24,427 nt of DNA from a virus, in the IMG/VR virus record IMGVR_UViG_3300026319_000018, positions 1 through 24,427 of that record; one strand, written 5' to 3'. The position numbers were made by a program, and so were the translations under genes. The notes under the pieces were generated by a model. It ran no database searches. It saw only the letters and a program-made list of their open reading frames with translations, and had not been told where the DNA came from. Below are positions 4,131 through 7,478 of the stretch, piece by piece (the first letter of the stretch is position 1; every line of letters begins with the position of its first letter).

Positions 4131-4510
4131 AATGCACTGATCCTGGTCACAGGTATGAATTGGATGTTTTAGATGGACAAAATATGGTATCTAAACACGC
4201 ACTCCAATTTGTCAAACGAATGGGGGAAAATTACCCAGGCAATGAATCTATTAATCCTGGAGTAACTATTCAAGAAATCCTTCGTGCTTGTATTGATCGT
4301 CTTTATTATGTGAATAATCAAATTCGTTGTCCTGAATCTGAGGCAGCAATTTATAATTTACGTATGGCGATATGGGAATTAGAAGTTCGCGCAAAAAGAA
4401 TTAAGAAAAAAACTCTTAATCTTACAACTATAAAAGAAATAGAAACTATTCCCACTTGTGTCACTTGTGGACACATAATGTGTGCTGAGAATCATATTCA
4501 TGAGAGATAA
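4127..4510 (+). CDS. Acb2/Tad1-hairpin-like protein, candidate cyclic-nucleotide sponge
   Basis: A 127-residue protein. The opening DPGHRYELDVLDG (5-17), then LQFVKRMGENYPGN (26-39), a helix with QEILRACIDRLYYVNNQI (49-66) and a second helix with NLRMAIWELEVRA (77-89) follow the pattern I know for phage proteins annotated as Acb2/Tad1 hairpin domain. Those proteins form oligomers that bind cyclic nucleotide signals and so block CBASS or Thoeris defence. The C-terminus adds a C-x2-C-x4-C-x3-H cluster (residues 111-123) that may bind metal and is not part of the hairpin domain as I know it. It starts in an ATGA overlap with the Nudix gene. Family placement is from sequence pattern only; the anti-defence role is inferred. 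Confidence 0.6.
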   Translation: MKCTDPGHRYELDVLDGQNMVSKHALQFVKRMGENYPGNESINPGVTIQEILRACIDRLYYVNNQIRCPESEAAIYNLRMAIWELEVRAKRIKKKTLNLTTIKEIETIPTCVTCGHIMCAENHIHER

Positions 4511-4514
4511 AATA

Positions 4515-4640
4515 ATGGCAGTTTGTTATGACCTCCTTGTAGGAGGTGGGATGATTCTTGGAGCTAGTGTTGCAATTTCAGTTGCAATTACTATTCCATT
4601 TGTTGCATTTGGATTCCTTCATAGCGCATTCTGCAAATGA
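4515..4640 (+). CDS. Small membrane protein (41 aa)
   Basis: A short frame of 41 codons filling the space between two coupled genes. Residues about 13-36 are almost entirely hydrophobic (MILGASVAISVAITIPFVAF), a single membrane span. The stop overlaps the next ATG (ATGA). A second in-frame ATG at codon 13 follows a perfect AGGAGGT, so a shorter 29-residue form is possible. Function unknown; a small holin-like or membrane-modifying role is possible, but nothing proves it. The first start has only a weak GAGAG upstream. Confidence 0.55.
   Translation: MAVCYDLLVGGGMILGASVAISVAITIPFVAFGFLHSAFCK
4531..4547 (+). promoter_or_regulatory. Shine-Dalgarno/anti-Shine-Dalgarno hairpin inside the 41-aa gene
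   Basis: ACCTCCT (4531-4537) and AGGAGGT (4541-4547) form a perfect 7-bp stem with a TGT loop. The right arm is the full consensus ribosome site and lies three bases before an in-frame ATG (4551). The left arm equals the anti-Shine-Dalgarno end of 16S rRNA. Folding would hide the internal start; ribosomes moving through from the first start would open it. Confidence 0.5.
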
Positions 4641-4786
4641 GATTCAAAGATGGATTATATCAAGTGAATAGATTTGATGTATGTGCTGGATTTGTGGTCC
4701 AAAACGGAATAGTAATTTTATGTGCTCCTATTTTGAGAAAGAAGTTCAATTATTGGGCAAATTTTGCAGCTCAAGTTGGAGAATGA
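4637..4786 (+). CDS. Small conserved-type phage protein (49 aa)
   Basis: A 49-residue frame that starts in an ATGA overlap and ends exactly one base before the polymerase ATG (TGAATG). The sequence YQVNRFDVCAGFVVQNG (8-24) followed by CAPILRKK (29-36) has the pattern of tiny phage proteins with an F-x-CAG-hhh-x-x-G core and a following APIL-R segment. These are common near replication genes, but I know no function for them. There is no own ribosome site, so it probably relies on coupling. Confidence 0.6.
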   Translation: MRFKDGLYQVNRFDVCAGFVVQNGIVILCAPILRKKFNYWANFAAQVGE

Positions 4787-6253
4787 ATGGATTCCTCACC
4801 AATTCTCTTAATGGTAACTCCATTCGATGAACCATTTCTTTCCACTCTTAAGCCACTCTTGAAGGGAAGAAAAGCTTATTCAATATCAGAAGATCCTGAC
4901 TCACATGCGGAGATAGAATTATATGCAAAAAGTAAAGGTATTAAGTATATCATCTCCACAAATGGTGGAGTTCTTAATAAAGTCATTGAAAGTCAACGAC
5001 ATCAGAAGCTCGATGATTGGGCCGGCTCTTTATATGAACGGAATGGAATCACATATCTCTTCCTTAACCCTCTTAAACAACTGTATAGTGTTCCATATGG
5101 AAGATTCCTCGCTGAGCGATTTATTAGTAAGTTGGTTCAACCTTCTCTATGGCCCCGCACTCCATCCTTTTCATGGGAACTCGCAAGAGTTGAAACTATC
5201 GAAAGATGGTTCCATCTCTTCTCTCAAACTCTTCTTATTGCAAATGATATTGAAACTGTTTCGTTTGAGAATCCATCAAACGGGGAATATGAAACTGCTA
5301 TTCAATGCTTAGCATTTACTGGTCTGTGGCCCGATAATAATATTCACACGATAGTGCTTCCAATCATGGATGCTCCCGTGAATGAGCAAATGTTCTGGAT
5401 CACTTGGATGCGAAAATTCTTGCTTCTTAAAATTGCAAAGGTATACCAAAATGGGCTCTATGATAATGCACACTGCATTAGTTATTCATCGCCAGGATAT
5501 GGATATTTCTTTGATACACAAAGTCTTTTCCATTCGTGGTATTCCGAGCTGCCAAAAAATCTTGCCTTTATTGCCGGATTTACTGTGCACAATGTTTACT
5601 ATTGGAAAGATCTCGCCAAAGAAAGCGGCAGAAGACATGAATATAATGCTCGGGATGGTTGGGCTACGCTTGTTTCCGCATTGGGACTTGCTAAAGAAAT
5701 GCCTCAATGGGCATGGACAAATTATTTATTTAAGTTCCCCGTATGGGTTCCTTGCTTATATTCCAACCTTGAAGGAGTCAAAGTAAATGAGTCAATCCGT
5801 GCAAAGCTTAGTGAGAAATTCATCACTGAGTATGAGGATTCACGTCTTAGAATGGAGAGATGGTTCGGAGAAGGATTCAATGGAAATTCTTCGCAACAAG
5901 TTACAAAACTTATACAGTTCTATGGAAGTACAGATATTACCAATGCTGACGAAGATGCCATTGAACGATTCGCACTTCGTCATCCTCTCAATGCTAGATT
6001 TGCTAGAGAACTCCTCAAGCTTAGAGAGTGTGCTGCTGTCATATCTAAATCGCTTAAACCCGATAATTTTAGTGTCTCTAAAAATAAATCTAAGAAAAAG
6101 ACTTATCTACTTAAAGGGGGACGATTTTATCACTCCCACAACCCAGATGGAACAGACACACTCAGGTTTACATCTGGCCCTGGCTATAACTGGACTGGTG
6201 CGAATATACAGAATCAAAACCCACGAATAAAGGAAATGTATGAGCCAGATTAA
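4787..6253 (+). CDS. Family A DNA polymerase, N-terminal part (3'-5' exonuclease and thumb)
   Basis: A 488-residue protein forming the first part of a split Pol I-type phage DNA polymerase. The proofreading exonuclease has all three motifs: Exo I D154-I-E156, Exo II N222-G-L-Y-D226 and Exo III Y286-N-A-R-D290. The remainder is the thumb and the start of the palm, ending with RFTSGPGYNWTGANIQNQNP and RIKEMYEPD, the segment that in whole enzymes is followed by P-G-Y and then catalytic motif A. Here a TAA comes straight after EPD. GGAG stands just before the ATG. The motif A to C part is encoded in the gene at 6406 in another frame. It should be an active exonuclease and needs the second part for synthesis. 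Confidence 0.85.
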   Translation: MDSSPILLMVTPFDEPFLSTLKPLLKGRKAYSISEDPDSHAEIELYAKSKGIKYIISTNGGVLNKVIESQRHQKLDDWAGSLYERNGITYLFLNPLKQLYSVPYGRFLAERFISKLVQPSLWPRTPSFSWELARVETIERWFHLFSQTLLIANDIETVSFENPSNGEYETAIQCLAFTGLWPDNNIHTIVLPIMDAPVNEQMFWITWMRKFLLLKIAKVYQNGLYDNAHCISYSSPGYGYFFDTQSLFHSWYSELPKNLAFIAGFTVHNVYYWKDLAKESGRRHEYNARDGWATLVSALGLAKEMPQWAWTNYLFKFPVWVPCLYSNLEGVKVNESIRAKLSEKFITEYEDSRLRMERWFGEGFNGNSSQQVTKLIQFYGSTDITNADEDAIERFALRHPLNARFARELLKLRECAAVISKSLKPDNFSVSKNKSKKKTYLLKGGRFYHSHNPDGTDTLRFTSGPGYNWTGANIQNQNPRIKEMYEPD

Positions 6254-6413
6254 GATTGTTGCTGTAATTAATAATGGAGATTATACAAGAGAAATTGGTT
6301 CATGGAATTTACCTTTAGAAATCCAAGAAGATCAAGAGGATGTAATATATTATATTGTTAATGAATTAAATGATCCTAAAGTTACAAAACTTGAGATTGT
6401 AAAAATTGAGTAA
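6240..6413 (+). CDS. Unknown 57-aa protein inserted between the polymerase halves
   Basis: A frame of 57 codons starting 14 bases before the end of the first polymerase part and ending eight bases inside the second part. AAAGGA lies six bases before the ATG, a good ribosome site. The product (starting MSQIKIVAVINNGDYTREIG, ending KVTKLEIVKIE) is acidic with alternating strand-like segments, compatible with a small alpha/beta fold. It has no homing-endonuclease motif such as HNH or GIY-YIG. It is the only gene between the two polymerase parts. I do not recognise it. Confidence 0.6.
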   Translation: MSQIKIVAVINNGDYTREIGSWNLPLEIQEDQEDVIYYIVNELNDPKVTKLEIVKIE

Positions 6414-7221
6414 TTTCTTTTTCTGTGAGCTTGATAATGAGCAAAGTGAGAGTCGTTGTACCGCTTACCTTAGCGGAGATAAAAATCTTATATCAGCGGT
6501 GGAATCGGATAAAGATTTTCATGCCATTAACATTGAGCGATTTTTTGGTGTTCCATATGATAAGGTTATTGGCCCTAATGGTGAGATTCTCGATTTGGAA
6601 TTGCGGAATCTTAGTAAGCGTGTTAATCATGGTGCAAATTATAATATGGGTCCAGCGGTTTTACTTATTACAATGGGAGAAGAAAATGTTGATCGTGCTA
6701 AAATTCTTCTCAATCTTCCAAAACATTGGAATAGAATTCGAGTTTGTGAACATCTATTAGGATTATATGACAAAGCTTATCCTGATGTCAAAACAATCTG
6801 GTATTCAGCAGTTAAGACGCAAGTACGCTCAACTCAGAAATTGGTTTCTCCTATGGGATGGACCCGTTACTGCTTCGGAAATCCAGAGAAATCAAAACCT
6901 GATCTTAATGCGTATGTTGCCCACCCGCCACAGAATCTTAGTGTCAGTATTATTAATGAAGGATTCAAAGATCTTTTTTGGAATATACAAGTCCAGAATC
7001 CAAAGGACTTTAGGCTTAAAGCACAAATTCATGATTCAATCTTTCTCCAAATCCGTTTTGGCAGAGAGAATCTTATTGAAGAAGCTAGAAAAGTGTGCGT
7101 TCGTCCAATACCAATTACGGATTGCAAGGGCATAAAGAGAATAATGACCATTCCGGTCGCTGCTAAAATAGGGAATAATTGGAAGGATATGAAAAAATGG
7201 ACCTCAGACTCCTTACATTAA
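6406..7221 (+). CDS. Family A DNA polymerase, C-terminal part (palm and fingers)
   Basis: A 271-residue protein carrying the synthetic centre of a Pol I-type enzyme. Motif A is CELDNEQSESR (catalytic D10). Motif B is R67-x3-K71-x7-Y79 (LRNLSKRVNHGANYNMG). Motif C is QIHDS (H209-D210). The frame opens only after a TAA at 6400, and the sole start candidate ahead of motif A is the TTG at 6406, giving M-S-N where whole enzymes have P-G-Y. Nothing essential is missing between the two parts. The position equal to Phe762 of E. coli Pol I is His75. No good ribosome site precedes the TTG, so translation probably depends on ribosomes finishing the 57-aa gene. Confidence 0.85.
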   Translation: MSNFFFCELDNEQSESRCTAYLSGDKNLISAVESDKDFHAINIERFFGVPYDKVIGPNGEILDLELRNLSKRVNHGANYNMGPAVLLITMGEENVDRAKILLNLPKHWNRIRVCEHLLGLYDKAYPDVKTIWYSAVKTQVRSTQKLVSPMGWTRYCFGNPEKSKPDLNAYVAHPPQNLSVSIINEGFKDLFWNIQVQNPKDFRLKAQIHDSIFLQIRFGRENLIEEARKVCVRPIPITDCKGIKRIMTIPVAAKIGNNWKDMKKWTSDSLH

Positions 7222-7478
7222 CAACTGTAAAAGAGATGTTTCCTTTAAAAGGAATATCAGCGGAGACTACTCTTGAAGTTATTCAATGCTTAGCAGTAAT
7301 GGAAGTTAAAACTATACTTTTAGTAGCTGATCCAGATGGGCAAAGATTCATTTATAATATAAATCGTATTCGCCAAGATTTGTTGCCAAAAGAATTTAAA
7401 TATCTTAGTAAGGGGAGGAAATATATAACACTTAAACTTCCTGAGCTTGAATCATTATTAATAATCCGAGTAAAATAA
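7197..7478 (+). CDS. Hypothetical phage protein (93 aa)
   Basis: A 93-residue protein starting at ATG 7197 inside the end of the polymerase gene; GGAAGG lies ten bases upstream. A TTG at 7179 would add six residues but has a worse context. The sequence begins with a helix (LLTLTTVKEMFPLKG) and alternates hydrophobic strands (VKTILLVADPDG) with a basic C-terminal half. It may be a small DNA- or protein-binding accessory factor, but I recognise no family. It sits between polymerase and helicase genes. Confidence 0.65.
   Translation: MDLRLLTLTTVKEMFPLKGISAETTLEVIQCLAVMEVKTILLVADPDGQRFIYNINRIRQDLLPKEFKYLSKGRKYITLKLPELESLLIIRVK

Follow-up and report, generated by a model that had tools for sequence, protein, structure and literature searches.

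Organisation of the polymerase locus

The window, by which we mean the whole stretch of 24,427 nucleotides of viral DNA that was analysed (IMG/VR record IMGVR_UViG_3300026319_000018), carries a family A DNA polymerase gene (polA) in two pieces, with a small gene, S, lying across the junction (Table 1). The upstream half, N, runs from an ATG to a TAA and encodes 488 amino acids ending in ..EMYEPD*; the downstream half, C, runs from a TTG to a TAA and encodes 271 amino acids. S, with an ATG start and a TAA stop, overlaps N by 14 bases and C by 8 bases, and the three genes occupy three different frames. The list of open reading frames (ORFs) reproduces exactly the three-gene layout and both overlaps that an earlier note on this DNA had described. 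The sequence AAAGGAAATGTATGA at the ribosome site of S is likewise kept in the related contig L001 (see below). C starts without a strong ribosome site of its own in both the window and L001, and the overlap of the S stop with the C start is 4 bases in L001.

Upstream of polA, positions 4482-4640 (+) may encode a 52-aa hydrophobic protein with a GTG start; positions 4500-4637 are 83% identical to L001 and belong to the most highly conserved sequence in this region. A 99-aa ORF at 7179-7478 (+) overlaps the end of the C half and gave no Pfam or PHROG match.

Table 1. Features of the interrupted polA locus in the window.
Feature	Position	Strand	Evidence
polA N half (3'-5' exonuclease, thumb, first part of palm)	4787..6253	+	ORF, phrog_17, motifs, dN/dS
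Shine-Dalgarno-like AAAGGA for S, within the N coding sequence	6228..6233, +/- a base or two	+	sequence reading
S, 57-aa gene, third frame	6240..6413	+	ORF, L001 homolog, dN/dS, AlphaFold2
polA C half (motif A, fingers, motif B, motif C)	6406..7221	+	ORF, Pfam, start position kept

Both halves belong to a family A polymerase under selection

The phage DNA polymerase family phrog_17 matches both N (1.2e-17) and C (1.6e-21), and C scores 46.7 bits against Pfam DNA_pol_A (PF00476), for which the cut-off is 34.3. N contains DIE at N154, NGLYDNAH at N222 and YNARD at N286, and C contains ELDNEQSESR at C8, RNLSKRVNHGANYNMG at C67 and QIHDSI at C207. The sequence-family match, together with motifs A, B, and C and the acidic residues of the exonuclease, places the interrupted gene among the family A DNA polymerases; all exonuclease and polymerase motifs, which the earlier note had called intact, could be located in one half or the other.

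Between the window and L001, dN/dS is ~0.18 in the N half and ~0.09 in the C half, values that indicate strong purifying selection on each. We found no second family A polymerase in the window or in the L001 record (24 and 34 kb, both partial genomes).

The break recurs in related contigs

A scan of viral contigs with the C half as query returned 80 relatives, among which L001 (82% identical) was the only split contig. Its polymerase gene breaks off in the same place, a homolog of S follows, and both EMYEPD followed by TAA and the M-S-N start of C are kept, with an ATG replacing the TTG in an ATGA overlap. The other 79 relatives have no stop across the junction, two of them (L044 and L007) starting inside the gene. 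An exact search with the codons of the N end matched no contig but L001.

Profile searches built on the window/L001 pair yielded two further contigs, L175 and L177. L175 (N 72% and C 71% identical) shares the codon of the break (..GMYVPD-TAA); C begins there with a GTG (M-E-N-S-F-I-L-C-E-L-D) that has a fair ribosome site. The start position of the C half is therefore the same in all three contigs, with a TTG in the window, an ATG in L001 and a GTG in L175. Between the N stop and the C start of L175 lie 465 nt with two ORFs and no S. The first ORF, which has an out-of-frame ATG at the S-start position, matches phrog_18063 (5e-28). The second, of 82 aa, matches an HNH/EndoVII-type zinc-binding region over ~50 residues (phrog_2255, 1.8e-7; endonuclease VII, 4.5e-6); judging by the matched range, it seems to lack the catalytic core and to be a truncated endonuclease piece. 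The DNA at the junction is thus exchangeable, with S in the window and L001 and two other genes in L175.

L177 (N 58% and C 61% identical) has an unbroken polymerase (..EMYIPDEGFEMFELDN..). In a tree of 82 polymerases the window, L001 and L175 form one clade (SH-aLRT 100), and the unbroken L177 is the sister of this split trio. A last scan added no new split contig: 74 checked loci were intact (many of them seen before) and two were cut by contig ends. L238 has a short polA frameshift just ahead of motif A (4780-5080), which may be a sequencing error or an early break; it has no insert and was rejected as a further split case. The same polymerase family also occurs on L254, a contig titled Thermoprotei archaeon MAG that is probably viral or misbinned.

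The earlier note had suggested looking in related phages for the same break and the 57-aa gene; the break is present in L001 and L175, and S in L001. Purifying selection on both halves and a break common to relatives identify this as a split gene. Because both halves are under selection, the break recurs and no other family A polymerase was found, the two-subunit Pol I-type enzyme proposed in that note is well supported by the sequences as real and selected.

The break maps to a turn leading into motif A

An AlphaFold2 model of the intact relative L005 (pLDDT 93.5) stands in for the halves of the window. Its nearest PDB entries are Pol I/Klenow, and this intact model has the Pol I fold. A loop at residues 471-474 (S-D-P-G) joins a short strand (469-470) to the motif A strand (475-482), which contains the catalytic aspartate, D481. 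In the alignment to L005 the cut of the window maps after the D of the loop, and M-S-N fills the next three positions. The earlier note had M-S-N replace a P-G-Y before motif A. Replacement by M-S-N stands, but P-G-Y is present in only some intact relatives, the three residues at this position being mostly xGF.

The model places the break in a turn at the surface, next to the active site and nine residues ahead of the catalytic aspartate; the motif A strand follows directly on this turn. A break in this turn leaves the adjoining strands of the model free to pair, and we infer that the halves could reassemble through that pairing. The case suggests that a family A polymerase tolerates a cut at one turn while staying under selection.

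MEP401-like phages have an apparently independent split

For the Methylophilales phages MEP401 and MEP402 (Zobellviridae), a polA divided by a small ORF, perhaps an intron, has been reported (PMC10580990). By alignment the MEP401 break lies in the same turn, with ..FLSRYGE* / MILNADAKALEW as compared with ..MYEPD* / MSNFFFCELDNEQ in the window. All MEP relatives with both halves visible are split, with gaps of -17 to 635 nt. Their junction genes vary and include acidic proteins of ~73-102 aa, a membrane-like short protein and an extra winged-helix ORF (PF14090); 14 contigs of the lineage have no insert, their halves abutting or overlapping. Judging by this lineage, a junction protein seems dispensable for a split polymerase.

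The polA junction ORF of the MEP401-like contig L162 is an HNH endonuclease (phrog_3322, 8e-29); the C-half match of this contig has an odd start. The junctions of L086, L088 and L090 measure 459 nt and those of near-identical contigs 236 nt, which points to a recent gain or loss; in L086 the junction ORF with the winged-helix domain (PF14090, 4e-10) lies beside the usual acidic one.

The polymerases of CRP-345, CRP-738 and HTVC103P, more distant relatives of the MEP phages, are annotated as unbroken. Because these three are unbroken and the two lineages are remote, the splits of the window clade and of the MEP phages look independent in origin. Breaks at one turn in two phage lineages so remote from each other would make this turn a natural split site for the Pol I palm.

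S is a small protein under selection

The S proteins of the window and L001 are 61% identical over 56 aligned residues, with a dN/dS of ~0.37 (0.275/0.75). In neutral simulations started from either S sequence, about 1.5-3 of 10,000 runs arrived at that identity with the frame free of stops. These comparisons indicate that S is selected as a protein and, because of that, that it does something. The AlphaFold2 model of S, built from two sequences, is a compact beta-beta-alpha-beta fold (pLDDT 81) with no significant match in the PDB. The same fold gave weak matches in BFVD, some of them small phage DUF7336/DUF2188 proteins; we considered membership in these families and rejected it, the matches being too weak for an assignment.

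Apart from L001, no S homolog was found in phages, IMG/VR or GTDB species genomes, nor by an HMM search of the ORFs at polymerase loci, and comparison of S with PHROG and Pfam revealed no endonuclease homology. The GC content of S is 27-31% and its GC3 12-16%, as against a GC3 of ~30% in the halves, which suggests a foreign or fast-evolving gene.

Gene fission as the probable explanation

Taken together, we think it probable that a fission of polA has become fixed in this clade, that the halves fold together, that S is a resident gene with its own job, and that translation of the S frame couples the halves. An insertion of the homing-endonuclease type at the junction probably began the split, and the junction would then have become a slot for small genes. 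This origin step rests on L175 and L162 because S has no endonuclease homology: no endonuclease lies at the junction in the window, a truncated HNH/EndoVII-type piece does so in L175 and an HNH endonuclease in L162. N and C would fold together via the strand pairing formerly joined by the turn, forming an active exonuclease-polymerase heterodimer without a linker, and S would be a resident small phage protein with a job of its own. Overlapping signals would let ribosomes pass along the S frame after the N stop and reach the C start, which would tie the synthesis of one half to that of the other. In the window and L001 translation is likely to be coupled along N, S and C because starts and stops overlap and the ribosome site is weak for C and good for S; such coupling may not extend to L175, with the fair ribosome site at its C start.

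Alternatively, S could be a true third subunit, one that the enzyme requires for activity and that acts on the halves as a bridge, clamp or regulator. Its placement exactly in the junction and its conservation as a protein between the window and L001 would fit, and S would be produced together with N and C. Against this, operon position by itself is weak evidence for a subunit, L175 has its break at the same codon but lacks S, and the split polymerases of the MEP lineage have junction genes that are unrelated to S or absent; we regard a third subunit as unlikely. The earlier note had thought of S as a linker, clamp or regulator, and the same observations speak against that proposal: because S is replaceable even within its own clade, a linker or clamp is disfavoured. 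We are similarly doubtful of a narrower version, in which S serves as a third subunit peculiar to this clade, assembling or tuning the split Pol I, and has taken over the junction from genes of the L175 type.

It is very unlikely that the junction segment is an intron, spliced from the RNA so that a single polymerase is made. In SPO1 and phiL7, endonuclease-bearing group I introns interrupt polA not far from this site, and the MEP401 authors weighed an intron (PMC10580990). However, the putative intron would be only ~150 nt long, S is under selection at the protein level, and all three contigs have a usable C start at the same position. The missing residues of the turn are present on neither side, so splicing could not restore them. 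Rfam gave no group I or group II intron match in window positions 6000-6700, up to E = 5. RNA splicing, which the earlier note had named as an outcome that would overturn its reading, is thus without support from Rfam or from the comparison with L001.

Equally hard to credit is a decaying polymerase in a phage that relies on another one. Such a gene could lie outside the partial records, but neither record has a second family A polymerase, and the strong purifying selection on both halves and the intact motifs argue against decay. Ribosomal frameshifts or a hop could fuse the products of all three genes, or of N and C, into a single chain, as the ORFs overlap; this we consider extremely improbable because the frame relations differ between the two genomes, N and C being in the same frame in L001 and in different frames in the window, with a different S-to-C shift as well. 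A split intein was rejected, as the N end and the C start align with intact relatives with no extra segment. Finally, although the contig is metagenome-derived, an assembly or sequencing artefact can practically be dismissed because assemblies only ~80% identical share the break: it is common to two other contigs (82% and 71% identity), and, as the earlier note had argued for a single sequencing error, neither that nor an assembly slip or chance explains it.

Comparison with known split and interrupted genes

Gene fission with cooperating products has precedents: the 43A and 43B proteins of phage 25, products of a split gene 43, purify together and have polymerase activity, and the split NrdA of Aeh1 is functional (PMC2988022). 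Like the window, 43A/43B of T4-like Aeromonas phages and nrdA of Aeh1 represent the fission of a core replication or nucleotide gene, with halves that cooperate there, and these fissions are tied to homing endonucleases or inserted sequence (PMC2988022). Unlike the window, gene 43 encodes a family B polymerase and nrdA a reductase, and the inserts are endonucleases or untranslated sequence.

As in the window, the family A polymerase genes (polA) of SPO1, phiL7 and LUZ24 are interrupted near conserved catalytic segments; unlike in the window, annotations or descriptions treat the interruptions there as introns or endonuclease inserts. In SPO1 and phiL7 the interruption is in the NLQ region, ~15-25 residues upstream of motif A, and in LUZ24 the break is further downstream. 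Inserted DNA often lands in this part of polA, at sites other than the exact one of the window.

In MEP401 and MEP402, as in the window, a family A polymerase is cut just before motif A with a small ORF between the halves, and junction genes vary among relatives as they do in the window clade. The MEP lineage is remote, however, and its junction proteins are unrelated; the break of the window is a few residues further upstream than that of MEP401, and the overlapping frames are a feature of the window. The locus offers a tractable case for seeing how a core replication gene may be broken up by inserted genes that later replace one another in the gap. A two-piece family A polymerase as such is already reported for MEP401-like phages; new in the uncultured clade of the window are an apparently independent second origin at this turn, a sister lineage with an intact gene, and an exchange of junction genes within the clade, a truncated endonuclease piece among them.
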